From: Thioalkalivibrio sp. ALJ12
GTDB taxonomy: Bacteria; Pseudomonadota; Gammaproteobacteria; Ectothiorhodospirales; Ectothiorhodospiraceae
Assembly (NCBI RefSeq): GCF_000378305.1
Contig: NZ_KB899541.1
Coordinates: 1 to 50,061 of the forward strand
Reading direction: 5' to 3'
DNA: 50,061 nt
This document shows positions 31,696-43,829 of the stretch, piece by piece (positions within the stretch are counted from its first letter, which is position 1; every line of letters starts with the position of its first letter). The notes beneath the pieces are model-generated. The model was not told the DNA's origin. It saw only the letters and a list, made by a program, of their open reading frames with translations, and ran no database searches. A program made the translations under genes and the position numbers.

Positions 31696-31862
31696 TCCTC
31701 CGCCCGGCATGAAGCGGGCCTGCTGTCGAACTGGTGCGGTGTCATCTCTCCCTGTCTCTCCAGGCGTCCAGGCCGCCAAAAGGCCCGTTTCTTCGAAATT
31801 GGGCTATTTATAAAGAACGTCGAGCTCGCCGGAGCCCCGGGGTCCGGCGTAGGAGGGAGAAC

Positions 31863-33062
31863 GTGACAAGGTCATCGAGGGCTGCTCTTGTGGTCCTGTC
31901 CCTGCTCGCCACGATATTGGCGAGTGCCTATGGTACGGCTGCCGCCAGCAGTCAAATGGTCGAGGTCCGGGCGGCGGCTCCTGAATACCGCACGGTCAGT
32001 GGCACCGTTATTCCGTTTCGCGAGGTCACCCTGAGCGCCCAGACCGCGGGGCGGGTCGTGGAACTCACCGGTGCCGAAGGCGATCGCTTCGAGCAGGACG
32101 AGCTCCTGGCACGTATTTCCGACGACCGTCTGCTGGCCCAGCGGCGCGCGGCCATGTCCGAGATGCGGGTGGCCGAGGCCGCGATCAACGAAGCGCGCAT
32201 GCAGTACGGGCGCGAGATGATCTCGCCTCAGTCGCGCAGCCTGGGGCAGATGCCCGGCATGGGTATGCCCTCGATGTTCGACCAGATGTTCACCCGGCCC
32301 ATGGGGCAGTTCATGGGGTTCGGTGATCCTTCGCTGGATCGGCATACCGACCTGTACTCCCGTTACGTCGGCGTCGATCAGGCCCAGGCCCGCTGGGAGC
32401 AGGCGCGGGCGCGAGTGGAGGAACTGGATGCGGCCATTCGCGAGACGCGTTCGGAGGCCCCGTTCGACGGATTGCTGATGCGCAAGCATGTGGAACCGGG
32501 CGACACCGTTCAGCCCGGGCAGCCGCTGGTCACGTTTGGCTATGTCGATTACCTGCGGATTGAAGCGCAGGTACCGGTGCGCCTGGTTGCCGCCTTTTCC
32601 GAGGGCGATGTGGTGCCCGCCCGCCTGGATGCCGGGGGCACGGTCCAGGCACGGGTGTCCCGGATCTTCCCCATGGCTGACCCGCGTCGGCATACCGTGA
32701 CCGTGCAGTTCGATCTGCCACGAGGCGTCTCCGGAGGCCCGGGTATGCACGTTTCGGTCGGTCTGCCGTCAGCCGACAGCGCACCCGGCCATGCGCTGAT
32801 CCCTCAGAGCGCGCTGATTCCGGGCGGGGCGCTGCCGCGCGTCGCGGTGGTCGACGGCGAAGGCCAGTCCCGGATCCGGGCCGTCCGGCTCGGTGCGGTG
32901 CGGGATGGCGAGGTGGTCGTGACCTCGGGTCTGGAGCCTGGCGAGTACGTCCTGCTGCAGGGCGAGCGTCAGCGGCCTTCTCATGCCCCTGCGACGCCTG
33001 GCGCCTCCGGCTACCACCACCCTCCCGCTACTCCGGGCCTCGCGCCCGGGGCGCAGATGTAG
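31863..33062 (+). CDS. RND efflux periplasmic adaptor (HlyD/MFP) with Met-rich insert
   Basis: 399 residues from GTG 31863, chosen because AGGAGGG lies 6 nt upstream and a signal peptide follows (ALVVLSLLATILASAYGTAAA). Lipoyl halves are IPFREVTLSAQTAGRVVEL and APFDGLLMRKHVEPGDTVQPGQPL, with a helical hairpin between them and a beta-barrel and membrane-proximal domain after. Inserted at about residues 129-157, within the hairpin, is a Met/Phe/Gly-rich stretch (PGMGMPSMFDQMF... PMGQFMGFGD). No OMF gene is nearby. It should pair with the RND pump 25 bp downstream. Confidence 0.88.
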   Translation: MTRSSRAALVVLSLLATILASAYGTAAASSQMVEVRAAAPEYRTVSGTVIPFREVTLSAQTAGRVVELTGAEGDRFEQDELLARISDDRLLAQRRAAMSEMRVAEAAINEARMQYGREMISPQSRSLGQMPGMGMPSMFDQMFTRPMGQFMGFGDPSLDRHTDLYSRYVGVDQAQARWEQARARVEELDAAIRETRSEAPFDGLLMRKHVEPGDTVQPGQPLVTFGYVDYLRIEAQVPVRLVAAFSEGDVVPARLDAGGTVQARVSRIFPMADPRRHTVTVQFDLPRGVSGGPGMHVSVGLPSADSAPGHALIPQSALIPGGALPRVAVVDGEGQSRIRAVRLGAVRDGEVVVTSGLEPGEYVLLQGERQRPSHAPATPGASGYHHPPATPGLAPGAQM

Positions 33063-33087: not shown

Positions 33088-36000
33088 ATGTCTGAACACA
33101 CCAACAATCCCTCCGGATCGTCGCCGGAAGACGGTGGTGACAACCACCACCATCAGCCCGGCATCGCCGGTCGCATGGCGGCCGCGTTTATCCATTCGCC
33201 GCTGTCGCCATTGCTGCTGCTGGCCAGTATCGCGATCGGGATCCTCGGGCTCATCGTCACGCCGCGACAGGAAGACCCGCAGATCTCGGTGCCGATGGTC
33301 GACATCATGGTGACCTATCCCGGCGTGCCGTCGGAGCAGGTAGCCAGCCTGGTCGCCCGGCCGCTGGAGCGCCTGATGAGCGAGCTTTCGGGCGTGGACA
33401 ACGTGTACTCCGTCTCTCACCGGGGCGAGGCGATGGTCACCGTGCAGTTTGACGTCGGCGAGGATATGGAATCGTCGATCGTCAAGGTGCATGACAAGCT
33501 GCTGGCCCATCGCGATCTGACCCCTCCCGGGGCCAGCGAGCCACTGGTTCGGGCCAAGGGTGCGGATGACGTGCCGATCGTGAACCTGACCTTCTGGTCG
33601 CACGAGGTGGACGATGCATTGCTGCGGCAGATTGCGCTGGAGGCCAAACAGCAGCTGAATGAGGTCCCCGATACCAGCCAGAGCTTTGTCGTCAGCGGTC
33701 GCAAAGAGACGCTTCGGGTAGAGGTGCAGCCCGATCGCCTGACCGGGTTCGGGGTGAGCCTGGATCAGGTCGAGCAAGCGATCCAGGCGGCCAATCTGGA
33801 AGACACCGCTGGACGCATCGAGAGCGGCGGCCTCAGCACGCCGGTGTATACGGGGCGCTTTTTCACCGGGGCACAGGACCTGGAAAGACTGCTGGTGGCG
33901 GTGGACGACGGGCAGCCGGTCTACCTGCGCGACGTGGCCGAGGTGATCTACGGCCCGGGCGAGGTTGATCAGTTCGTGCGCCACTACTCCGGCGCCGCCG
34001 CCGCGGACCCGGATGCAGCGGCGAATGGTGCTGCCGCTGTGACGCTCGCGATTGCGAAGAAGCCAGGCAGTAACGGGGTAACGGTGGCGAACGGCGTACT
34101 GGAGCGCCTCGAGCAGCTCAAGGGCGACACCATCCCCGACAATGTCGAGGTCGCCGTCTCGCGCGATTACGGCAAGACCGCCAACGACAAGGTCAACGAG
34201 CTGATCTTCAAGCTCTTCATCGCGACGTTTGCGGTGACCATCCTGGTGGGGCTGTTCCTCGGGGTGCGTGCGGCCATCGTGGTGCTGGTGGTCATCCCCG
34301 TGGTCATCCTGTTCACGGTCTTCAGTGCATGGGTGCTGGGATACACCATCGACCGCGTAAGCCTGTTTGCCCTGATCTTTGCCATCGGGATCCTGGTCGA
34401 CGATGCCATCGTGGTGGTGGAAAACATCTATCGCCGCTGGCTGATGAAACGCGGGATCGATGCCGAGACCTCGGTTGATGCGGTCCGCGAGGTGGGCAAT
34501 CCCACGATTCTGGCCACGTTTACCGTAATCGCGGCACTTCTGCCCATGGGCTTCGTGTCCGGAATGATGGGCCCGTACATGCAGCCGATCCCGGTGCTGG
34601 GGTCGGTGGCGATGCTGTTCTCTCTGGTGGCCGCGTTTGTCTTTACCCCCTGGCTGACTCAACGGCTGCGACCCAGCATGGGCTATCTCGCCAAGGCGAC
34701 GGAGAAGGAGCACCGCCAGGCCGAACGACTGGGTGGGTTCTTTCGCTGGGCGATACCCGGGCTGGCCGATCACCGCTGGCGCGGCTACGCGTTTCTGATC
34801 GGGATTGTGTTGGTGTTTTTCCTGGTCGTCAGCCTGTTCTTCACCACTGACGTGCGCGTGAAGATGCTGCCGCTGGACAACAAGCCCGAGTTCCAGGTGA
34901 TAGTCAACTTCCCGGAGGGGACGGCGCTGACCGAGACCGCCACGCTGAGCGAGGAAATGGCCGGTGTGCTGCGCGGCTTCGACGAAGTCACCGGCGTGCA
35001 AAGCTACGTCGGGACTGCTTCGCCGTTCAACTTTAACGGTCTTGTGCGGCACTACTACCTGAGGGACAAGCCCTGGCAGGGCGATCTGCAGGTGCAGCTG
35101 GTGGACAAAGGAGATCGCCGCCGCTCCAGCCACGAGATCGCCACGGAGGCGCGCGAGCGGCTCGCACCGCTCGCGGCAGCCGCGGGTGCTCGCATCCAGG
35201 TGGTCGAGATGCCGCCGGGCCCCCCGGTGCTCCAGTCGGTGGTCGCCGAGGTCTACGGGCCGGATGCCAGTACGCGGCGGACGGTTGCCCGCGATCTGGA
35301 GCAGATGTTCGCCGGTGCCGAGCACATCGACGACGTGGACACCTTCCTGCAGGCGCCGCACAACGTTTGGCACTTCGAAGTCGACCGAGACAAGGCGCTG
35401 CGTCGCGGTGTCACGGTGGAGGCGGTCAACCGCACCCTGCAGACCGCGCTCGACGGTCGGATCGTGGGCGACGTGAAAGCCCAGTCCCTGGTCGAGCCAC
35501 ACCTGATCCAGCTGCGGCTGCCACACGAACAGCGGGTAGACGTGCGGCAGATGGAGCTGCTCCCGGTAGCGTCGCGCAATGGTGATCTGATCCCGCTGGT
35601 CGAGCTGGGTGGCTTCGTCCAGCGCCCGCAGGACGAGCCGATCTACCACAAGAACCTGCGCCCGGTGGAGTATGTGACGGGCGAGGTCGTGGGGCGCCTG
35701 GCTGCGCCGGTGTACGGCATGCTCGAGGTCCAGCAGCAGCTCGCGGACTACACGGCACCGGACGGCAGCGAAGTGCAGCCGCACTGGATCGGGCCCCCAG
35801 CCAACGACGGATCGGTGGCATTCGAGTGGGGCGGCGAGTGGACGGTCACCTACGAGACTTTCCGCGATATGGGCATCGCCTTCGCGATCGCGCTGATCCT
35901 GATCTACATGCTGGTCGTCTGGGAGTTCGGCAACTTTGTTTTGCCGGGCATCATCATGGCGCCGATCCCGTTGACGCTGATCGGGATCATCCCCGGCCAT

Positions 36001-37164
36001 TGGCTGCTCAACGCTGAGTTCACGGCGACCTCGATGATCGGGTTTATCGCCCTCGCGGGGATCATCGTGCGCAACTCCATACTGCTGGTGGACTTCGGCC
36101 GTCAGGCCGTCGATCAGGGCCATGACGTGCGCGAGGCCATGATCATGGCCTGCCAGGCCCGTACGCGCCCGATCATCATCACCGCCTTCGCGCTTCTGGC
36201 CGGGTCCAGCGTGATCTTGTTCGATCCCATCTTCCAGGGCATGGCGATCTCGCTGATGTTCGGCACCGTGGTGGCCACGCTGCTGACCCTGCTAGTGATC
36301 CCGCTGGGCTGTATATCCGGTCGGCGGGCTTTCTGTCCCTCAACGGTCGATGCCGACGGTGGTAACGCCGCGTATTCCGCCGGCCCTGGGCAGGCGCCCC
36401 TGGGTTCGGGTCAGCAGAAGGACCTGTTTGGTCCGCGCGATGGTGGTCCGGTTACTCAGGCGGTCCAGTTGGCCGGCCTGTATCTGAAGAGCCTCGTGCT
36501 GGCATTCCTCGAAGGGATGCGGGACCTGGCGCTGGCGATCTTCCGCCTGCTGCGTAACTGGTGGCGCGGGGGCGGTGGGCCGGGGGGGCCGAGTGGCGGC
36601 GCGGGTCCGCAACCGGGTGGTTCCGGTTCTGGCCCGCAGGGCTCGGGCCCGGCCCACACATCGGGTGGGTCGACCGTCGAAGCCCCCAATGGGGCCGATT
36701 CCTCCGTCGGTCCGGAACACCCCGAGGCCCCCGCGGAACCACCGCCGAAATCCAGTCGCACGAAGTCGAAGAACGAGGACACCTCCCCCGCTGCGAAAGC
36801 GCAGTCAGGTTCCGGGCAGGGTTCTTCCCGGCGTACGAGCGCCGCGCCGGCCACAAAGCAGAAAACAGTGCGCAAGACCAGTACGAAACCGACGCAAGCG
36901 GGGAAGAGCGGTGGCCGGTCTGCAAAGACCTCTTCCAGGTCCTCGTCCAGCCGGTCCGGTACTACGGCCTCCGGCCAGCCGGCGGGCAAGACCCCATCCA
37001 GTTCCGAGTCCAGCAAGAAGAAGGCGACCAGCCAGTCGTCCGCATCAGAAGGAGGCAAGACCTCCAGTACGGCGGGCCGTTCGAGCGGTGCGCGCAAGGG
37101 TACAGGGGGCAGCAGTGGCGGATCCGCCAAAGGCCGCGGGCGACGCGGGATCCGTCTGAAATGA
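33088..37164 (+). CDS. RND transporter permease with long basic disordered cytoplasmic tail
   Basis: 1358 residues; normal RND pumps of this type have about 1030-1080. Residues 1-1075 form a complete HAE1-like pump: TM1 near 35-55, VTPRQEDPQISVPMVDIMVTYPG, the TM4 acidic motif in GILVDDAIVVVENIYRRW, and TM12 ending LLTLLVIPLG. After that comes an extra tail: a hydrophobic/amphipathic segment at about 1122-1157 (LAGLYLKSLVLAFLEGMRDL...) and some 200 residues of Gly/Ser/Lys/Arg/Thr-rich sequence ending RGRRGIRLK. The tail reads in frame with sensible codon use. It could bind DNA, RNA or the ParA protein encoded downstream; that is speculation. Substrate unknown. Confidence 0.9.
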   Translation: MSEHTNNPSGSSPEDGGDNHHHQPGIAGRMAAAFIHSPLSPLLLLASIAIGILGLIVTPRQEDPQISVPMVDIMVTYPGVPSEQVASLVARPLERLMSELSGVDNVYSVSHRGEAMVTVQFDVGEDMESSIVKVHDKLLAHRDLTPPGASEPLVRAKGADDVPIVNLTFWSHEVDDALLRQIALEAKQQLNEVPDTSQSFVVSGRKETLRVEVQPDRLTGFGVSLDQVEQAIQAANLEDTAGRIESGGLSTPVYTGRFFTGAQDLERLLVAVDDGQPVYLRDVAEVIYGPGEVDQFVRHYSGAAAADPDAAANGAAAVTLAIAKKPGSNGVTVANGVLERLEQLKGDTIPDNVEVAVSRDYGKTANDKVNELIFKLFIATFAVTILVGLFLGVRAAIVVLVVIPVVILFTVFSAWVLGYTIDRVSLFALIFAIGILVDDAIVVVENIYRRWLMKRGIDAETSVDAVREVGNPTILATFTVIAALLPMGFVSGMMGPYMQPIPVLGSVAMLFSLVAAFVFTPWLTQRLRPSMGYLAKATEKEHRQAERLGGFFRWAIPGLADHRWRGYAFLIGIVLVFFLVVSLFFTTDVRVKMLPLDNKPEFQVIVNFPEGTALTETATLSEEMAGVLRGFDEVTGVQSYVGTASPFNFNGLVRHYYLRDKPWQGDLQVQLVDKGDRRRSSHEIATEARERLAPLAAAAGARIQVVEMPPGPPVLQSVVAEVYGPDASTRRTVARDLEQMFAGAEHIDDVDTFLQAPHNVWHFEVDRDKALRRGVTVEAVNRTLQTALDGRIVGDVKAQSLVEPHLIQLRLPHEQRVDVRQMELLPVASRNGDLIPLVELGGFVQRPQDEPIYHKNLRPVEYVTGEVVGRLAAPVYGMLEVQQQLADYTAPDGSEVQPHWIGPPANDGSVAFEWGGEWTVTYETFRDMGIAFAIALILIYMLVVWEFGNFVLPGIIMAPIPLTLIGIIPGHWLLNAEFTATSMIGFIALAGIIVRNSILLVDFGRQAVDQGHDVREAMIMACQARTRPIIITAFALLAGSSVILFDPIFQGMAISLMFGTVVATLLTLLVIPLGCISGRRAFCPSTVDADGGNAAYSAGPGQAPLGSGQQKDLFGPRDGGPVTQAVQLAGLYLKSLVLAFLEGMRDLALAIFRLLRNWWRGGGGPGGPSGGAGPQPGGSGSGPQGSGPAHTSGGSTVEAPNGADSSVGPEHPEAPAEPPPKSSRTKSKNEDTSPAAKAQSGSGQGSSRRTSAAPATKQKTVRKTSTKPTQAGKSGGRSAKTSSRSSSSRSGTTASGQPAGKTPSSSESSKKKATSQSSASEGGKTSSTAGRSSGARKGTGGSSGGSAKGRGRRGIRLK

Positions 37165-37200: not shown

Positions 37201-37890
37201 ATGAAGAAAACATTTGAAAAACCGTTGATCACAGGGCTGACCGGACTCGCCATGGCCACGGCCCTGGCGTTGGGTGCGGCCCAGGCCGACGACTATGCCA
37301 ATGACCAGGACGGCGCCAGTGGCCAGATGGCCCAGCAGGGCGCACCCATGGGTCCCTATGGCCACGGGCCTCAGGGCGGACACGGCTGGGGTGGTCATCC
37401 CGGCGGCGGGATGATGCAGCAGCGGCAGTTCTCCGGCGACATGGGCTTCGGCATGTCCGGTCGCAGTCATGGTCACGGCTATGGCCGCGGCTACGGCCAG
37501 GGTCATGGACAGGGTTATGGCCACGGCTACGGCCAGGGCTATCCGGGCTACGGGCCGGGATACGGACACGGCTACGGACACGGCTACGGCCCGCAGCCGC
37601 AATACGGCATGCCGGGCCCGATGCACGGGCCGGGATATGGCTCCATGCCCGAGTTCGATCCGGATGACCTGCCCGAGGACATGCCGGAAGAAATGCGCGA
37701 GCGCATCAAGAAGCAGCACGCCGAGCGCCAGGAGTACATGGAAGAGATGCAGGCCATGCACGAAGCCCGAATGAAAGCCATGGAAAAGGGCCGCGAGGCG
37801 TACATGGAAGAGATGGAACGCCAGCGCGAAAAACGCATGGAGGCCATGCGCGAGCGCCGCGAGGCTATGGAAGAGCAGGGCGGCTACTGA
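37201..37890 (+). CDS. Secreted Gly/Tyr/His-rich protein with charged coiled-coil end (sulfur-globule-like)
   Basis: 229 residues. Signal peptide LTGLAMATALALGAAQA-DD. Residues about 50-155 are GYG/HGYG/GPGYG repeats rich in Gly, Tyr, His and Met; residues about 160-229 are a Glu/Arg/Met-rich helix (ERIKKQHAERQEYMEEMQAM...) that should form a coiled coil. Gly/Tyr-rich secreted proteins coat sulfur globules in purple sulfur bacteria. The added helix could anchor or polymerise the coat. It lies 36 bp after the RND gene, in the same operon. Confidence 0.75.
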   Translation: MKKTFEKPLITGLTGLAMATALALGAAQADDYANDQDGASGQMAQQGAPMGPYGHGPQGGHGWGGHPGGGMMQQRQFSGDMGFGMSGRSHGHGYGRGYGQGHGQGYGHGYGQGYPGYGPGYGHGYGHGYGPQPQYGMPGPMHGPGYGSMPEFDPDDLPEDMPEEMRERIKKQHAERQEYMEEMQAMHEARMKAMEKGREAYMEEMERQREKRMEAMRERREAMEEQGGY

Positions 37891-37897
37891 GCGACCG

Positions 37898-38347
37898 ATG
37901 GTGAACGCCGTGCACATCGGTTCATGCGCTCGCGGGCTGGCAGCCGGAAGGGGCAAGCCTGTCCTCGGGCTGCTCGTGGCCGTCGTTCTGGCCTGGGGGG
38001 TCTCCGGTGCCAGTGTCGAGGCGCGCGAGCGTGTGAACCCCTGGGCCGGCGTGGCGCCGGCGCCGGAGTTCCCAGCCGCGGAGGCGGCGCAGCCCAGGTT
38101 GCAGTTCCCGGACCCGGACTACGACCCCACCAGAACTCGGGAGCGTGCCGACGTGCTGGCACCACGGACTCACCCCGGTCAACCCCAATGGGGTTACCAC
38201 GGACATGGAGGTCCGTATTCCGGGTATCCGGGCCCTTACGGGGCGTACCCCGGACCTTTCGGGCCCGGTGGATGGGGAGGCCCAGCTGGTGGGCCATTCC
38301 CCTGGATGATGCCGTGGGGTATGGGCGGGTTTCCGTTCACACCCTGA
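37898..38347 (+). CDS. Secreted Gly/Pro/Tyr-rich protein
   Basis: 149 residues; start 8 bp after the preceding stop, ribosome-binding site weak. Hydrophobic signal segment at about 20-42 (GKPVLGLLVAVVLAWGVSGASVEA). The mature part is Pro-rich and ends in a Gly/Pro/Tyr/Trp/Phe block (HGGPYSGYPGPYGAYPGPFG... FPWMMPWGMGGFPF). No known domain. By composition and position it could be a third structural protein of the sulfur-globule set. Confidence 0.65.
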   Translation: MVNAVHIGSCARGLAAGRGKPVLGLLVAVVLAWGVSGASVEARERVNPWAGVAPAPEFPAAEAAQPRLQFPDPDYDPTRTRERADVLAPRTHPGQPQWGYHGHGGPYSGYPGPYGAYPGPFGPGGWGGPAGGPFPWMMPWGMGGFPFTP

Positions 38348-38437
38348 GGGCATAAGTAAAGCGCCGGTGCGGGACCGCCCTCTTCGTCCCGGCGTCACGA
38401 ATATCGAGGGCAACACACTCCAAATGGAGGGAACACC

Positions 38438-38908
38438 ATGAAGACTTTCATTAAAGCAGCCGTTCTTGCGGTTTCCATGGGCGGCCTGGCCGTTCCGATG
38501 ATGGCATCTGCCCAGTGGGGCGGGCCCGGTTATGGCCCGGGTTACGGCTATGGTCCTGGTCCTGGGCATTTCGGCCCGGGGCACTACGGCCCGGGGCACT
38601 ACGGCCCGGGTTACGGCACGCCGTTCTTCGGCGGCCCGGGCTACGGCCGTGGCTGGGGCATGGGCGACATGATGAGCGACATGATGGGCGACTTTGACTT
38701 CTCCGCCCGCGGTCGCGGTCACGGCCATGGCTATGGTCACGGTCACGGCCGCGGTCATGGCTATGGTCACGGGCATGGTTATGGCCCGGGTTACTACGGC
38801 CATCCTGGCTACGGCTGGGGCCCGGGCTATGGCGGCCCGATGCAGCAGCAGATGCCGCAGCAAATGCCGCAGCAGCAGATGCCGCAGGGCGAGGGTGACC
38901 GCAACTGA
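38438..38908 (+). CDS. Sulfur globule protein-like
   Basis: 156 residues with signal peptide (AVLAVSMGGLAVPMMASA-QW). Gly/Pro/Tyr repeats (GPGYGPGYGYGPG, FGPGHYGPGHYGPG) flank a hydrophobic acidic block WGMGDMMSDMMGDFDFSARGRG, which matches the DMM-GD-F-D-F signature of sulfur-globule family proteins, followed by HGYGHGHGRG repeats and a Gln/Met/Pro end. These proteins form the protein shell around periplasmic sulfur globules. A strong terminator follows, so this is probably the last gene of the first sigma54 transcript. Confidence 0.8.
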   Translation: MKTFIKAAVLAVSMGGLAVPMMASAQWGGPGYGPGYGYGPGPGHFGPGHYGPGHYGPGYGTPFFGGPGYGRGWGMGDMMSDMMGDFDFSARGRGHGHGYGHGHGRGHGYGHGHGYGPGYYGHPGYGWGPGYGGPMQQQMPQQMPQQQMPQGEGDRN

Positions 38909-38925
38909 GGTTGCCGGTCATCCGT

Positions 38926-38957
38926 GGGGCCCGTCCACCAGGGGCGGGCCCATTTTT
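38926..38957 (+). terminator. Intrinsic terminator after sulfur globule gene
   Basis: Stem GGGCCCGTCC / GGGCGGGCCC (one G-T pair, 5-nt loop) followed by ATTTTT. Confidence 0.9.
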
Positions 38958-38990
38958 CCCCAGGCAACACGCTGAACCGCGGGAGTATGC

Positions 38991-39641
38991 ATGCGCACCG
39001 TCGTAGCCAATCTGAAAGGCGGTACGGGCAAGAGCACCGTTACCTTCAATCTCGCACTCTGGCTGCTCGAGCAGGGGCGCTCGGTATGCACGGTTGATCT
39101 GGATCCCCAGGGGACCCTTACCGATGTCCTGGAGGTTCGCGAGGAAGAGGGCTACATACCTGCGCTGGAGCATGCAACGTCGCTCAAGGCGGTTGCGGAA
39201 CAGGGTCAGCAGGCTTGGCAGGAGATCCTCGTCGATGTGGGTGCATCCGACATGGGGTCCTTGTTCGAGGCTTTGGAGAGTGCGGATCGCTTGTTGATCC
39301 CCGTCCCCCCGAGTCAGGCCGATGTCTGGTCCACCCAGCGTTTCGTGCGCCGGGTACAGGAGTCACACCAGACGGACGGACGTCCGCAAATCCTGGTGTT
39401 CATTAACCGAGCGGATACGCACCAGGCGGTCCGTGAAACCGACGAGACCTTTGACGCACTGGGGCAGATCCCGGGCGTGAAACGACTCGCTCCCCGATTG
39501 AAACAACGCATGGCGTTTCGTCGTTCGTTCAGCGAAGGACTGTCCGTGCGCGAATTGGAACCCCGTGGCAAGGCTTCACGGGAACTGGAGGCCCTGGCGA
39601 TCGCGTTATTCGGCAAGCCCGGGCGGCGGCGCCGGAAGTAG
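38991..39641 (+). CDS. ParA/MinD-type partition ATPase
   Basis: 216 residues from ATG 38991. Deviant Walker A with the signature lysine: K9-GGTGKST-16. Switch regions are [12 protein letters not shown] and ILVDVGASD. No N-terminal HTH, and short, as in the small ParA proteins that place plasmids or cargo (type Ib, McdA). The C-terminus ends GKPGRRRRK, basic and possibly DNA-binding. No parB-like gene is nearby. Because it sits among sulfur-globule, DsrE and fcc genes it may position sulfur globules or membrane complexes; the likely adaptors are the RND tail or the 40328 protein. That role is inference. Confidence 0.9.
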
Positions 39642-39740
39642 AGCCGGACGACCAACAGTGCAAGCGAGACCGCGAATACGAACAACAAGACGCGCCGCTC
39701 TCACAACAAGCCTGACAAGGCACCAAAGGAGGATAGAGGC

Positions 39741-40328
39741 ATGCGAGTGATCTGGAATGTACTGGCCATTATCGGCCTGCTGGCCGTGATCGCTGTCGGC
39801 TATGCGATCTACGTTCTTCAACCCTACGCCGGGGGCGCTCGGGCCCTCGATTCACAGGCCACGACGGTCTACGCGCGCATGGCGCGCACGGTGCTGGAAA
39901 CCGGCGATATGGCCGAGGCCACGGTATACAAGAGAAAGGTCGAAGAAGGCCTGGACGTTGGCGAGGTGGAAGACACGCTGAGGATGGTCGCCAACGAACT
40001 GAATATTGCCAACGTTGGCGAAATGCCGATGAGCGAGGAGGTGCGTAACGTTACTGGTGAAGACTTCCCGTTCCTGAAGATCTACATGTTCTGCGACGCG
40101 AGAATCGCCGCGCAGATGGTGCGGCACAGCCAGGCCATGGCGGCCTATCTCCCCTGCCGCATCGTGCTCCAGGAAGACGAAGAGGGCCAGCTCTGGCTGA
40201 TGACGCTGAACCTCGATCCGATGATCCACGGTGGCCGGCCGTTGCCGGAAGAACTCTACGAACAGGCGCTGTTTGTCCAAGAGTCGCTCGAGACCATCAT
40301 CGATCGCGCCGCACGGGGTGAGTTCTGA
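39741..40328 (+). CDS. Membrane-anchored DUF302-like protein
   Basis: 195 residues with AAAGGAGG upstream. One N-terminal TM helix (NVLAIIGLLAVIAVGYAIYVL), then a soluble domain probably in the periplasm. The C-terminal half matches the DUF302 pattern: FPFLKIYMFCDARIAAQMV, LPCRIVLQEDEEGQLWL and LNLDP. Two Cys, at about 117 and 138, could be functional. DUF302 proteins are common near sulfur-oxidation genes but have no established function. The stop overlaps the next start as TGATG. Confidence 0.75.
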   Translation: MRVIWNVLAIIGLLAVIAVGYAIYVLQPYAGGARALDSQATTVYARMARTVLETGDMAEATVYKRKVEEGLDVGEVEDTLRMVANELNIANVGEMPMSEEVRNVTGEDFPFLKIYMFCDARIAAQMVRHSQAMAAYLPCRIVLQEDEEGQLWLMTLNLDPMIHGGRPLPEELYEQALFVQESLETIIDRAARGEF

Positions 40329-40870
40329 TGGCGACTGAGGACCCCTATGCGAGAACGTCCCATGGGCCCGGCGTTGATCCGCCGGAGTACGAACGTATTG
40401 CGGAGGAGGCGGATGAGGCCTATCTGAGGGCCCGACGACTGGAGCTTGTCGTGTACTCGGCCCTGACGGCCTTCATCATCCTGGCGATTTACGGGTTCTG
40501 GCTGATCACCAGTCTCACCAACGACGTCAGCCGGCTGACCGAGGAGATTAGCAAGATGACGCGTGTGGTCGATCGCGATCTCTCCGTGATCGCGGGGCAC
40601 ATGTCGGATGTAGACGAACGAATGCAGCAGATCGCCGCCAGCATGGAACGGGTGGACAGCCATGTCGGGACCATCAGCGAGGACACCGCGGCGATGCAGC
40701 TCAGCATTGCCTCGATGACGCGCGATACCGAGCTGATGGCCGCCTCCACGTCCGGCATGCAGCGGGACATGTGGAACCTGAACCGAAACGTGGGCGGACC
40801 GATGGGCACGATGAACATGTTCAACCCGTTTCAGGGTGGCGGGCCCCCGGGGCCCTGGATGCCCCACTGA
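40328..40870 (+). CDS. Bitopic membrane coiled-coil protein with Met/Gly/Pro-rich end
   Basis: 180 residues. A cytoplasmic N-terminus of about 37 residues (acidic, PPEYERIAEEADEAYLRARRLE), one TM helix at about 40-62, then a heptad-like coiled coil of about 90 residues (VSRLTEEISKMTRVVDRDLSVIAGHM...), ending in GGPMGTMNMFNPFQGGGPPG. The last block resembles the sulfur-globule and adaptor Met/Gly-rich segments. The topology could connect a cytoplasmic partner such as ParA to a periplasmic globule. No known family recognised. Confidence 0.75.
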   Translation: MATEDPYARTSHGPGVDPPEYERIAEEADEAYLRARRLELVVYSALTAFIILAIYGFWLITSLTNDVSRLTEEISKMTRVVDRDLSVIAGHMSDVDERMQQIAASMERVDSHVGTISEDTAAMQLSIASMTRDTELMAASTSGMQRDMWNLNRNVGGPMGTMNMFNPFQGGGPPGPWMPH

Positions 40871-40903
40871 CCGACCGGCTTCAAGGGAGCCGAGGAGAAA
40901 ACA

Positions 40904-41071
40904 ATGACCGTGATGGCCTGGGTTCTTTTTGTATTGGCGATGGTGATGGTCCCCATATCCATCTGGGGCACGCTGGCGGCCCTCGGGTTGTGCGTGGGCT
41001 GCACCATGATCCGCGACTGGAATCGAACGCGCCGCGCGAAAGCGGACGGGGGCAACCGAGGATCCATGTAG
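40904..41071 (+). CDS. 55-residue membrane protein
   Basis: Short gene with GAGGAGAAA 5 nt before ATG 40904. One long hydrophobic stretch (VLFVLAMVMVPISIWGTLAAL), then CVGC and a basic end (RDWNRTRRAK). The Cys pair at residues 30 and 33 (CxxC) lies at the end of the hydrophobic segment. Placed between the coiled-coil and DsrE genes, on the same strand. Unknown function. Confidence 0.7.
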   Translation: MTVMAWVLFVLAMVMVPISIWGTLAALGLCVGCTMIRDWNRTRRAKADGGNRGSM

Positions 41072-41110
41072 GCGAGGGTCTGCTTTTTACGAAATCGAAG
41101 GAAGTCTCTT

Positions 41111-41581
41111 ATGAGCGAGCAGAAGAAGCTGGCGATTATCGCCACCAAGGGCAGTCTGGACTGGGGCTATCCCCCGTTCATTCTGGCCTCGACGGCGGCC
41201 GCGCTCGGCTATGAAGTGGAGGTGTTCTTTACCTTCTACGGACTGCAGCTGTTGCGCAAGAAGATGGATCTGCAGGTCACTTCGCTGGGCAATCCGGGGA
41301 TGCCGATGCCCATGCCCATGCCGGTGATGCTCCAGGGGCTGCCGGGCATGCAGCGCATGATGACGACCATGATGAAAAAGAAGATGGCCGCGAAGGGGGT
41401 CTCCGATCTCGAGGAACTGCGCGAGATGTGTCTGGAGGCCGACGTGCGCATGATCGCCTGCCAGATGACCGTAGACCTCTTCGACATGGACACCGACGAG
41501 TTCATCGACGGACTGGAATACGCGGGTGCGGCGGCTTTTTTTGAGTTCGCCGGGGACTCCGATATCTGCCTGTTCATATGA
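41111..41581 (+). CDS. DsrE-family (DsrE2-type) sulfur-relay protein
   Basis: 156 residues. DsrE/F/H-like fold: KKLAIIATKGSLDWGYPPFILASTAAALGYEVEVFFTFYGL, then the characteristic GNPGMPMPMPMP and MMKKKMAAKGVSDLEELREM, and the Cys motif MIACQMT with C117 (also C107). DsrE2-type proteins are found beside rhodanese and TusA in sulfur oxidisers and are thought to bind or move persulfide sulfur in the cytoplasm. No TM helices here. It lies directly upstream of the second sigma54 promoter region. Confidence 0.92.
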   Translation: MSEQKKLAIIATKGSLDWGYPPFILASTAAALGYEVEVFFTFYGLQLLRKKMDLQVTSLGNPGMPMPMPMPVMLQGLPGMQRMMTTMMKKKMAAKGVSDLEELREMCLEADVRMIACQMTVDLFDMDTDEFIDGLEYAGAAAFFEFAGDSDICLFI

Positions 41582-41656
41582 CAATCTCCCGCGGAAACAT
41601 CGTCTTTACATTCTGAAAAAGTAATGGGTGTATATATTCGAACGTTTGGGAGTGCT

Positions 41657-41693
41657 GTTGCAAAAGCGTTGCAACAACGATGCGATCTGCAAC
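41657..41693 (+). promoter_or_regulatory. Phased GTTGC repeats, activator enhancer site 2
   Basis: GTTGC at 41657 and 41668, 11 bp apart, with a degenerate GATGC at 41679 and an inverted TGCAAC at 41688. GTTGCAAC at 41668-41675 is a palindrome. Distances to the -24 GG are 93, 82 and 71 bp, identical to the three right-hand copies of site 1. Confidence 0.75.
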
Positions 41694-41717
41694 GACTGTC
41701 CGCTTCCACATAACCTG

Positions 41718-41730
41718 TAACTCACGGATT
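41718..41730 (-). promoter_or_regulatory. Weak candidate IHF site
   Basis: Minus-strand AATCCGTGAGTTA fits WATCAA-N4-TTR at 11 of 13 positions. It ends 20 bp before the -24 GG; the site at 31648 ends 21 bp before its own. Confidence 0.35.
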
Positions 41731-41748
41731 AAGAGTTTTTTATTAAGC

Positions 41749-41764
41749 TGGCGTGAAGTTTGCT
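41749..41764 (+). promoter_or_regulatory. Sigma54 promoter upstream of fccAB
   Basis: TGGCGTGAAGTTTGCT, a close match to TGGCACG-N4-TTGCT with GG and GC at the right offset. Predicted start near 41775. Confidence 0.82.
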
Positions 41765-41774
41765 GTCGGCCCCA

Positions 41775-42041
41775 AGGACAAGGCCGAGACCCTTGGCCCG
41801 CGAATTCATCACCGCGAATGGACCCCCTGCCATTGAAGCGTTGGTGGCACCCTCCCTCCTGGAGAGGGGCGTGCAGCGTTCGTGCGGAAACAAGGGTCAG
41901 TGGCCGGCTTGAGTTTTGCGGACAAGCCGGCTGTCGGAAGGAAGCATGTTGTCCGGCCAGGATGCCGGCGGTTCCGCTGCGAACCGGCAACATGATTGTT
42001 CTCCGTCGCTTGGGTCGGGTACGCATGCCCGACCCTTTTTT
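41775..42041 (+). ncRNA. Structured leader or sigma54-driven small RNA
   Basis: About 267 nt from the predicted start to an intrinsic terminator. Visible structure: a hairpin near 41847-41874; a perfect 9-bp stem GCCGGCTTG / CAAGCCGGC (41903-41931); and a three-way junction closed by CATGTTG / CAACATG (41945-41951 with 41988-41994) enclosing CCGGC/GCCGG and GGTTC/GAACC hairpins. Then comes the terminator. It could be a stand-alone sRNA or an attenuator controlling fccAB. No homologous RNA family is recognised. Confidence 0.5.
42012..42041 (+). terminator. Intrinsic terminator inside the fccAB leader
   Basis: Perfect stem GGGTCGGG / CCCGACCC, 8-nt loop, then six T. It lies between the sigma54 promoter and fccA. 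Confidence 0.9.
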
Positions 42042-42207
42042 GGCGGGGTGTTCAGGGAATGTCCGGTCCCTGTGAGTGCAGGGACAGAGGCCGGATAAGG
42101 AATGTCAGACCATTCAACCCGGGGCCAACACCGGGATCGAGGAGGAAGGCAGCCCCAGAAGGCGGCCGACAAAGTGGCTATTCACATCAAGTGGAGGAGT
42201 TTGTTCA

Positions 42208-42522
42208 ATGATGACGCGTACATACATGGCGGGGTTTGCGGCCTCGCTGCTGATGGCCGCCGCGGTGCCCGGCACTGTGCTGGCGGATAACGACGAAGTG
42301 ACTCGAGGGCAGCTAATGGCGGCGTCGTGCAAGGCATGTCACAACGCCGCGGGTGCCGAAGAAGGCGTACCGGATCTCGCTCGTCTGTCACCGGAGTTGA
42401 TTGCCAATCAGATGCGGGCATTCCGTGATGGCGATCGTGACGCGACGATCATGGATCGTCACGCCAAGGGTTACACCGACGAAGAAATCGACGCCATGGC
42501 GTCGTACTTCGCCCGATTCTGA
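42208..42522 (+). CDS. fccA: Cytochrome c subunit of flavocytochrome c sulfide dehydrogenase
   Basis: 104 residues from ATG 42208 (GGAGGAG upstream; a second ATG follows at once). Signal peptide about 1-26 (AASLLMAAAVPGTVLA). One haem motif, CKACH at 41-45, with Met82 in TIMDRHA as likely sixth ligand. It is a small mono-haem class I cytochrome, as in Chlorobium FccA, not the di-haem form of Allochromatium. It passes electrons from FccB to the respiratory chain in the periplasm. FccB is encoded 14 bp downstream. Confidence 0.9.
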   Translation: MMTRTYMAGFAASLLMAAAVPGTVLADNDEVTRGQLMAASCKACHNAAGAEEGVPDLARLSPELIANQMRAFRDGDRDATIMDRHAKGYTDEEIDAMASYFARF

Positions 42523-42536
42523 ACAGGGGGTCCATC

Positions 42537-43829
42537 ATGCAACAGTTCAATCGACGCCGCTTCTTGCAGGCGTTCGGCATTACGAGTCTGGCTTCCGTCA
42601 CAGGGGTCAGTGGCGCGATCGCCGGTGGTTATTCCAATGGCGCACGTATCGTCGTGGTCGGCGGCGGTTCGGGTGGGGCAACGGCCGCCAAGTACCTGAA
42701 GACGTTTTCTCCGGGGCTGGACGTGACCCTTATCGAGCCCAATTCGACCTACCACACCTGTTACGGCAGTAACTGGGTGATCGCGGGGTTCGAGGACATG
42801 GACAATATCGCCCAGACGTACGACGCCCTGCGTGACCGGCACGGGATCAAGGTCGTCGCGGACTCGGTGACGGCTGTGGATGCGGACAAGCGTCGCGTCC
42901 ATCTGGCCGGAGGCGACGAGGTCAAGTACGACAAGCTGGTGATGTCGCCGGGTATCGACTTTCGCTATGACGCGGTCGAAGGGATTTCCGAAGACGACGC
43001 CGAGGCGATCCCGCACGCCTGGAAGGCCGGGGAGCAGACCCGCATCTTGCGTTCGCAACTGACCGACATGCCGGATGGCGGCGTGTTCGTGATGGTCGCC
43101 CCACCAAACCCGTTCCGCTGCCCGCCGGGGCCGTACGAACGTGTCTCGCTGATCGCGCATTACTTCAAGCAGGAAAAGCCCAAATCCAAGATCATCGTGC
43201 TCGACGCCAAGGACAACTTCTCCAAGCAGGGCCTGTTCGAGGAAGGCTGGGAAGAGCACTACGGCGACATGATCGAGTGGCGTGGTGCGTCCGACGGTGG
43301 CAACGTCCAGGAGATCGACGTTGGCGAGAAGATGGCGATCACCGAAGAGGGCTTCGAGCGGGTGAAGGCCGACGTGATGAACTTCATACCGCATCAGCAT
43401 GCGGCGAAGATTGCCCACGATGTCGGCCTGACCAATGACGAGGGCTGGGTCCCGGTGGATCAGCGCACCTTCAAGTCGGACATGGACGACAACATCTACG
43501 TACTGGGGGATTCGAGCGTGGCCGGTGCCATGCCGAAGTCCGGTCATTCGGCCAACAACCAGGGCAAGATCGTCGCCGCGGCGATCGTGCGCGAACTGAT
43601 GGATCAGGAGCCCTTCGATCCCTCGTCCGCCAACACCTGCTACAGCTTGATTACGCCCGATCATGGGGTCAGTGTTGCGGCCGTGTATCAATACAAGGAT
43701 GGAGCTCAGGCGGGTGTGGACGGTTCAGGGGGCGTGAGTCCCTCCGGCGAGAGCGCGGATTTCAGGAAGCGGGAAGCCGAATACACCCGAGGTTGGTACA
43801 AGGGCATCACCTACGACATCTGGGGCTAG
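42537..43829 (+). CDS. fccB: Flavocytochrome c sulfide dehydrogenase, flavoprotein subunit
   Basis: 430 residues. The N-terminus has a twin-arginine signal (FNRRRFLQAFG) and a Gly-rich FAD motif VVVGGGSGG (39-47). C75 in YHTCYGSNW is the expected covalent FAD attachment site. C195 in NPFRCPPGPYER and C368 in NTCYSLITP are the expected redox-active cysteine pair. The C-terminal FCSD-type domain continues to the end. It oxidises sulfide to sulfur or polysulfide in the periplasm, giving electrons to FccA. Full length for the family. A terminator follows. Confidence 0.95.
   Translation: MQQFNRRRFLQAFGITSLASVTGVSGAIAGGYSNGARIVVVGGGSGGATAAKYLKTFSPGLDVTLIEPNSTYHTCYGSNWVIAGFEDMDNIAQTYDALRDRHGIKVVADSVTAVDADKRRVHLAGGDEVKYDKLVMSPGIDFRYDAVEGISEDDAEAIPHAWKAGEQTRILRSQLTDMPDGGVFVMVAPPNPFRCPPGPYERVSLIAHYFKQEKPKSKIIVLDAKDNFSKQGLFEEGWEEHYGDMIEWRGASDGGNVQEIDVGEKMAITEEGFERVKADVMNFIPHQHAAKIAHDVGLTNDEGWVPVDQRTFKSDMDDNIYVLGDSSVAGAMPKSGHSANNQGKIVAAAIVRELMDQEPFDPSSANTCYSLITPDHGVSVAAVYQYKDGAQAGVDGSGGVSPSGESADFRKREAEYTRGWYKGITYDIWG

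Follow-up and report, generated by a model that had tools for sequence, protein, structure and literature searches.

Our analysis concerns a locus in the window, the whole 50,061-nucleotide stretch of Thioalkalivibrio sp. ALJ12 DNA that was analysed (contig C4; the genome comprises 2.78 Mb in six contigs), where a ParA-type ATPase is encoded among secreted proteins of sulfur-globule type. The locus is conserved in other genomes, it is tied to sulfur oxidation and to the sulfur globule protein family (SGP, PF17228), and the presence of ParA is coupled to a short motif, RRGIRLK in the window, in the C-terminal tail of a resistance-nodulation-division (RND) pump. We propose, with a probability of about one half, that the locus encodes a membrane-anchored machine that builds and places periplasmic sulfur globules; all contacts between its parts, the substrate of the pump and the positioning itself are what we infer. 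The gene cluster suggests that stored sulfur droplets may be placed by dedicated machinery. The placement of storage inclusions is understood for carboxysomes and a few others. According to PMC10386293, sulfur globules seem to be scattered at random in many species and to have a specific place in some others.

The genes of the locus lie on the plus strand in the order membrane fusion protein (MFP), RND, sgpL1, sgpL2, SGP, ParA, TM-DUF302 (transmembrane segment and DUF302 domain), coil (a bitopic coiled-coil protein), s55 (a 55-aa membrane protein) and DsrE2. Many relatives add an EHD/dynamin-like GTPase. Open frames, a coding-bias caller and homologues in other genomes back the reality of these genes, which confirms those that a first-pass annotation of the stretch had placed here. 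Below, G and L numbers denote genomes and loci, and G000 is the genome of the window.

Conservation of the locus and its tie to sulfur storage

Searches of 369 gammaproteobacterial genomes found the GTPase (E ≤ 1e-60) in 88, the ParA clade (E ≤ 1e-25) in 65 and coil-like genes (E ≤ 1e-6) in 75. The ParA cut-off sits in a score gap: in a search of 58 genomes, clade members scored at least 149 bits and the proteins ranked next at most 91. The GTPase and ParA co-occurred in 55 genomes, in 32 of which they were at most 3 kb apart on one strand. The sulfur-oxidation gene dsrA was present in 54/65 ParA-positive and 64/304 ParA-negative genomes (Fisher 3.9e-21), where 111 genomes over the cut-off and seven strong partial matches, five of them in ParA-positive genomes, were counted as positive; at the strict cut-off the counts were 49/65 and 62/304 (Fisher 5.3e-17). 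Moreover, SoxB exceeded its cut-off in nine of the 11 ParA-positive genomes lacking dsrA, versus 8/69 controls, the latter being part of the 218 genomes without ParA, dsrA or GTPase. The genome of the window is one of the 11, with SoxB and no dsrA, whereas G351 holds a SoxB fragment only and no dsrA. With these nine genomes, 63/65 ParA-positive genomes carry dsrA or soxB.

The SGP family was searched among dsrA-positive genomes in order to separate the property of being a sulfur oxidiser from that of forming globules. The sample comprised a random 35 of the 54 ParA-positive and 34 of the 64 ParA-negative genomes, plus all 11 ParA-positive genomes without dsrA; matches were taken at E ≤ 1e-3 and occurred in 39/80 genomes, in 38 over the cut-off. 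Among the dsrA-positive genomes, SGP was found in 28/35 with ParA versus 4/34 without it (Fisher 8e-9), and the GTPase is present in each of the four ParA-negative genomes with SGP (G116, G124, G376, G399). Of the 35 ParA-positive genomes with SGP, 11 (G000, G023, G068, G070, G103, G115, G222, G279, G298, G325 and G379, from ten families) had one such match 81 to 2689 bp 5′ of parA and in the same orientation; in four of the 11 (G068, G103, G279, G325) it was under the Pfam cut-off. In the window, the SGP gene (38438..38908, +; PF17228 6.9e-9, 36.9 bits against a cut-off of 26.7; signal peptide by eye) is the sole PF17228 match of the genome.

These data bear on the possibility that the locus is a system for export of lipids or other hydrophobic compounds and for membrane remodelling, in which ParA places the pump for the sake of the envelope and globules are affected indirectly. 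RND, MFP and a dynamin-like GTPase have envelope functions, and the GTPase family is wider (88/369) and less tied to dsrA (57/88) than ParA. However, SGP tracks ParA among dsrA-positive genomes, and 11 genomes spread over ten families have an SGP match within 2.7 kb 5′ of parA; we consider this explanation unlikely.

Named genomes were scanned with the ParA alignment, and the loci described here come from the best 80 of at least 542 relatives, a set skewed towards relatives of the first sequence. The genera among the matches listed were Allochromatium, Thiocapsa, Thiocystis, Chromatium, Thiorhodococcus, Thiohalocapsa, Halochromatium, Lamprocystis, Thiodictyon, Thiobaca, Imhoffiella, Thiolapillus, Sedimenticola, Thiodiazotropha and Thiosymbion, together with animal endosymbionts; other listed matches were labelled by class, order or family only, and one was a Methylococcales (L157). 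The named genera are sulfur oxidisers, and many of them store globules. RND was encoded 5′ of parA in 66/69 loci with at least 5 kb upstream, and the coil 3′ of parA in 66/69 loci with at least 3 kb downstream; DUF302 was present in 28 of the latter 69. The GTPase lay upstream on the opposite strand in 50/59 loci with at least 9.5 kb. In a phylum-wide sample of 131 genomes, the ParA clade occurred in 30 outside the class at 47-55% identity, with the coil 3′ of parA in 15/15 loci fetched and RND 5′ on the same strand in 10/15.

Within the genus, DUF302, GTPase, coil and ParA were searched in 58 genomes including that of the window, and this ParA was present in 24/30 genomes of the genus (own included). 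The mapped congener loci showed the order RND - sgpL1 - sgpL2 - SGP - ParA - DUF302 - coil - GTPase - s55 - DsrE2, although some of them lacked a detectable copy of one gene or another and others were cut by the end of a contig. The check proposed in the first-pass annotation, namely whether the block is kept with sgp genes across sulfur oxidisers, thus gave a largely positive answer in the genus, dsrA and SGP counts. The association of the ParA locus with sulfur storage is well supported; the linkage is real, and the suggestion of a globule system survives this broad test. That unrelated genes came together here by chance or by hitch-hiking, as fccAB in the window seems to have done, is highly improbable, since the gene order is common to many families and to loci outside the class and the tail motif described below tracks ParA.

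The C-terminal tail of the RND pump

The pump gene (33088..37164, +) encodes 1358 aa, of which residues 31-1073 match ACR_tran (3.5e-154). Beyond this match follows a basic, low-complexity tail that is probably cytoplasmic (36325..37161, +), ending in the candidate ParA partner peptide RRGIRLK at the extreme C-terminus (37141..37161, +). From 144 loci we obtained 110 complete RND C-termini (identity at least 48%); one of these, from the ParA-negative L233, was moved to the controls, which comprised 21 loci of 20 ParA-negative genomes, seven with RND. The pump of the window shares the ACR_tran domain with AcrB-type pumps; unlike those, the 109 pumps of ParA-positive genomes have a tail of 120-388 aa that closes in RRGIRLK or a near variant. 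The pattern [RK]GI[RKQ][LIM] was present in 109/109 tails, as exact RGIRL in 101, and began a median of 14 residues from the C-terminus, many of these loci being close kin. It occurred in 1/7 ParA-negative pumps (Fisher 2.4e-9 for 109/109 versus 1/7), and shuffled tails held it at 0.2%. In G051, which is ParA-positive, the motif was kept though pump and parA are on separate contigs (L086, L088). In contrast, among ParA-negative genomes the motif was missing from the tails of G116, G240 and G343 (36-51 aa) and of G339 (86 aa), and also from the long tails of G213 (72% complete) and G176. A control with other RND pumps yielded one usable paralogue, which had no motif and carries little weight.

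These data point to the RND pump, more than to the globule coat, as the ParA partner, and no other candidate for that role currently looks better than its tail. We propose from these sequences that the tail may be the partner of ParA and that the pump-globule assembly may be its cargo. In the machine envisaged here, SGP-type and other low-complexity secreted proteins would form or coat the globule, as their family and composition suggest, while the MFP-RND pump would sit in the inner membrane at the site of globule assembly. By analogy with ParA/MinD-type ATPases and their charged, disordered partner peptides, ParA would bind the disordered pump tail via RRGIRLK and might thereby space or segregate pump-globule assemblies. 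The coil, as a long membrane-crossing helix, would connect both sides of the membrane, and the EHD/dynamin-like GTPase, where present, might shape the membrane around the globule. A more tentative extension, to which we give somewhat less than even odds, is that sulfur globules are positioned organelles, with a cytoplasmic ParA reaching across the inner membrane via RRGIRLK and a dynamin-like GTPase remodelling the membrane, in an arrangement kept across purple sulfur bacteria, animal symbionts and soda-lake chemotrophs.

The coil (40328..40870, +) could itself be the ParA partner, with its cytoplasmic N-terminus and juxtamembrane helix binding ParA and its periplasmic end holding the globule coat. 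It was modelled as a single helix (residues 18-155, mean pLDDT 77.9, pTM 0.33), and the alignment showed a conserved membrane segment with a (K/R)RWEL-type juxtamembrane segment, as well as a conserved C-terminal motif that ends in MPW in most sequences. Its gene follows parA in nearly all named loci and in all those outside the class, in the counts given above. Nevertheless, the ParA-negative G116, G240, G343, G339, G213 and G176 keep the coil while their pumps lack RRGIRLK, which weakens the coil as a partner. Its N-terminus is also not notably basic, unlike the positively charged partner N-termini described in PMC10241942, and we regard the coil as a doubtful candidate.

Several observations weigh against a globule-placing machine with the pump as ParA partner. 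The p-values above overstate the evidence, because they treat as independent a set of genomes that share ancestry and loci of which some are closely related. Within the six families of mixed ParA state (f10, f75, f95, f125, f134, f154; counts by reading), SGP occurred in 7/9 ParA-positive versus 2/7 ParA-negative genomes, a weak contrast that points the same way. Seven of the 35 ParA-positive, dsrA-positive genomes gave no SGP match, and G391 has ParA, coil, GTPase and pump with no dsrA (weak match, 3e-13), soxB or SGP. Much of the locus is kept without ParA in G116, G240, G343 and G339. The coil is absent in L136 and L157, the latter also lacking RND, while L225 has no RND, coil or GTPase within 9 kb; the GTPase was not seen within the 15 stretches fetched outside the class. 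As to the motif, the ParA-negative G124 has both a long tail and the motif (the contig stops some 700 bp past the pump, and the genome is 88% complete), and three of the ParA-negative pumps (G116, G240, G343) come from one family. Finally, the congeners G001, G005, G021 and G029 lack ParA, DUF302 and coil of the window kind and keep a GTPase-s55-DsrE2 cluster. The cytoplasmic side of the tails is uncertain too, because 92/109 hold a hydrophobic stretch (Kyte-Doolittle at least 1.3).

On that last point, AcrB-type pump C-termini are cytoplasmic, and the motif was present in all 11 pumps outside the class, ten of which have no stretch above 1.13 Kyte-Doolittle (L215 has one). We therefore read the tail as probably cytoplasmic. 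As to the congeners, there are two further ParA-less ones, of which G014 is incompletely assembled and G015 is cut by a contig edge, and the ParA-less clusters hold sgp-like genes where inspected. The joint absence of ParA, DUF302 and coil from four congeners that keep the rest indicates that these three genes form a separable module. A second cluster of the window's own genome (G000:C1, approximately L077:6820-11674) is likewise without ParA. Besides GTPase, s55 and DsrE2 it encodes secreted proteins, some sgpL1-like and some with Gln/Pro/Gly repeats, and a bitopic protein that matches TPR weakly.

The ParA ATPase, the GTPase and known systems

The ParA protein (38991..39641, +; 216 aa) matched CbiA at 1.8e-14 and NF041546 at 7.4e-39, the latter under its cut-off. 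The deviant Walker A motif (KGGxGKS/T) was invariant at K9, G10, G11, G13, K14, S15 and T16 in 7/7 aligned sequences, and the profile matches in the PDB were the partition ATPases ParA/ParF (4e-13 and 6e-13), Soj (4e-11) and McdA (2e-10). Both observations speak against a ParA that has lost its spatial role and instead regulates the pump or globule formation, or serves either of them as an assembly ATPase, which we judge distinctly unlikely. In its favour, the case for positioning by this ParA comes from sequence comparison, and ParA-like ATPases can serve roles other than positioning.

A tree of 35 ATPases placed the globule-type ParAs apart from the genome's six other ParA/MinD proteins (support 96/96). 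McdA was the nearest of the six, but the nearest neighbour is uncertain because the branches are long. The McdA-like protein (34% identical to ParA, at G000:C1:1407840) is another gene, beside carboxysome-like genes so labelled by reading, and together with the tree split this led us to reject McdA as the identity of our ParA. That apparent carboxysome cluster, recognised by eye, spans L095:829-10883 (G000:C1:1398000-1417900) and has its own McdA-like ParA. A ParABS component was likewise rejected: no ParB family match was obtained among the ten proteins scanned, in agreement with the first-pass description of a ParA without a ParB partner, and the ParB-like gene of the genome adjoins Soj away from the locus. 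The protein encoded there starts MAKRGLGRGLDALLSG, and an N-terminal segment of that kind in ParB binds ParA.

The closest parallels are partial. As in McdAB, a ParA-type ATPase is encoded with genes of a protein-coated inclusion, and McdA is among the solved relatives; unlike McdAB, the locus has no recognised McdB-like gene, and here the cargo would be periplasmic, with the RND pump as candidate partner. According to PMC10241942, cargo-specific partners of ParA/MinD ATPases act, as shown or suggested, via a positively charged, disordered N-terminus. The systems for chemotaxis arrays and flagella treated there resemble ours in the charged, disordered partner peptide and in having one ATPase per cargo, whereas the candidate peptide here is the C-terminal tail of a transporter. 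SgpA-D of Allochromatium vinosum are secreted globule proteins as well, and sgpL1 adjoins RND as sgpD adjoins the gene of a hydrophobic/amphiphilic exporter (PMC10386293). The available sections of that account contain no ParA or GTPase, and sgpL1 is SgpD-like by description only. In A. humboldtianum (L130), we saw no sgpD-like gene beside the RND gene preceding parA.

The GTPase of the congeners matched Dynamin_N at 2e-14, over the cut-off, and its best sequence matches in the PDB were EHD4 and EHD2, which places it with EHD-type/dynamin-like GTPases. Unlike EHD proteins proper, it gave no Pfam match to an EH domain at E ≤ 1. Its model (pLDDT 65) had a poor G domain and a long helical C-terminal half of low confidence, and Foldseek gave no match below 1e-3, the best being LeoA at E 5e-3. 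Because the fold search was weak, the assignment follows the primary structure. The window's genome has its own copy at G000:C1:1300865-1302379, outside the window locus.

In the open-licence literature, we found no paper joining sulfur globules with the ParA family or with an RND transporter; in the texts as available, "sulfur globule" and "dynamin" co-occurred only in another use. Broader, unspecific terms for ParA and positioning returned no description of ParA-placed globules among the matches listed, as far as their available text extends. The conserved ParA locus makes globule positioning directly testable in culturable purple sulfur bacteria. If the proposal is true, this would be a ParA system with a transporter as partner and a cargo outside the cytoplasm; with a transporter tail as partner, the ParA paradigm would come to include cargo on the far side of the membrane, and globule formation would gain the RND pump as a new candidate factor.

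Other features and neighbouring genes

The first-pass annotation was partly confirmed in its observations and partly supported in its interpretation, and several changes are needed. It drew the locus correctly around parA, DUF302, coil, s55 and dsrE but too narrowly, as RND and MFP upstream belong to it too and, in many relatives, the GTPase joins the system. The MFP gene encodes the periplasmic adaptor of the pump (31890..33062, +; HlyD_D23 2.1e-13 for the open reading frame 31734-33062, start from the coding-bias caller), and by reading an MFP-like gene also precedes RND in L086, L141 and L144. A 131-aa protein is encoded between the GTPase and MFP genes (L144:1418-1813, L086:8273-8668); an "SCP2-like" label for it was dropped, as Pfam gave no match for the L144 copy.

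Shell proteins resembling those of sulfur globules had also been described. This holds for SGP by its PF17228 match, whereas sgpL1 (37201..37890, +; secreted, Gly/Tyr/His-rich, C-terminus Met/Glu/Lys-rich, homologues in congeners) and sgpL2 (37898..38347, +; secreted, Gly/Pro/Tyr-rich, congener homologues at 32-39% identity) gave no significant family match, PF17228 included, and resemble globule proteins only in their composition and signal peptides. In the named loci, the RND-ParA interval held an open reading frame with a signal-like start and [YF]RFR in 52/70 cases; 63 such frames lay between RND and ParA, one elsewhere on the same strand and three on the opposite strand. Pro/Tyr/Arg-rich secreted proteins of this kind (L144:7461-9928, L163:8595-9944, L164:8228-9016) had no Pfam match where scanned in these three loci, and by sequence they are candidate unrecognised globule coat proteins. 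A tubeworm endosymbiont scaffold (L169:8571-9943) shows a run of N and what seems to be a second, incomplete copy of both the parA start and the YRFR protein, perhaps through faulty assembly.

Downstream of parA are the TM-DUF302 gene (39741..40328, +; DUF302 4.4e-15, N-terminal transmembrane segment by eye), coil, s55 (40904..41071, +; 52-61% identity to homologues in congener loci) and the gene of the DsrE2 sulfur carrier protein (41111..41581, +; NF047629 9e-86, over the cut-off). The coil does stand directly before s55 in the window, as noted earlier, but in congeners the GTPase gene (about 524 aa) lies between them; the corresponding junction here, without the GTPase gene, is the 33-bp gap at 40871..40903 (+).

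Of two further points in the earlier description, we reject that fccAB belongs to the unit, and we found no support for co-regulation of the whole. The fccAB genes (42208..43829, +; fccB a flavocytochrome c sulfide dehydrogenase, fccA a cytochrome c) are genuine and begin 626 bp beyond DsrE2 on the same strand. However, fccA/fccB matches were found in 0/23 related loci (22 congener loci and G034, some on short contigs), and a terminator-like hairpin from the hairpin scan (42012..42035, +) separates dsrE from fccA, so that we judge fccAB a mere neighbour. DUF302 paralogues also lie beside fccAB or a single fcc gene in other loci (L063:1097-3671, and L062, L064, L075), which indicates that DUF302 and Fcc meet independently of the ParA block. 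The promoter scan found none at the window locus. The same hairpin scan placed another terminator-like hairpin between SGP and parA (38927..38951, +), and a stable hairpin followed by a T run occurred 5′ of parA in 14/18 congener loci scanned, with differing stem sequences. The SGP/parA hairpin is possibly a terminator that allows an excess of SGP over ParA.

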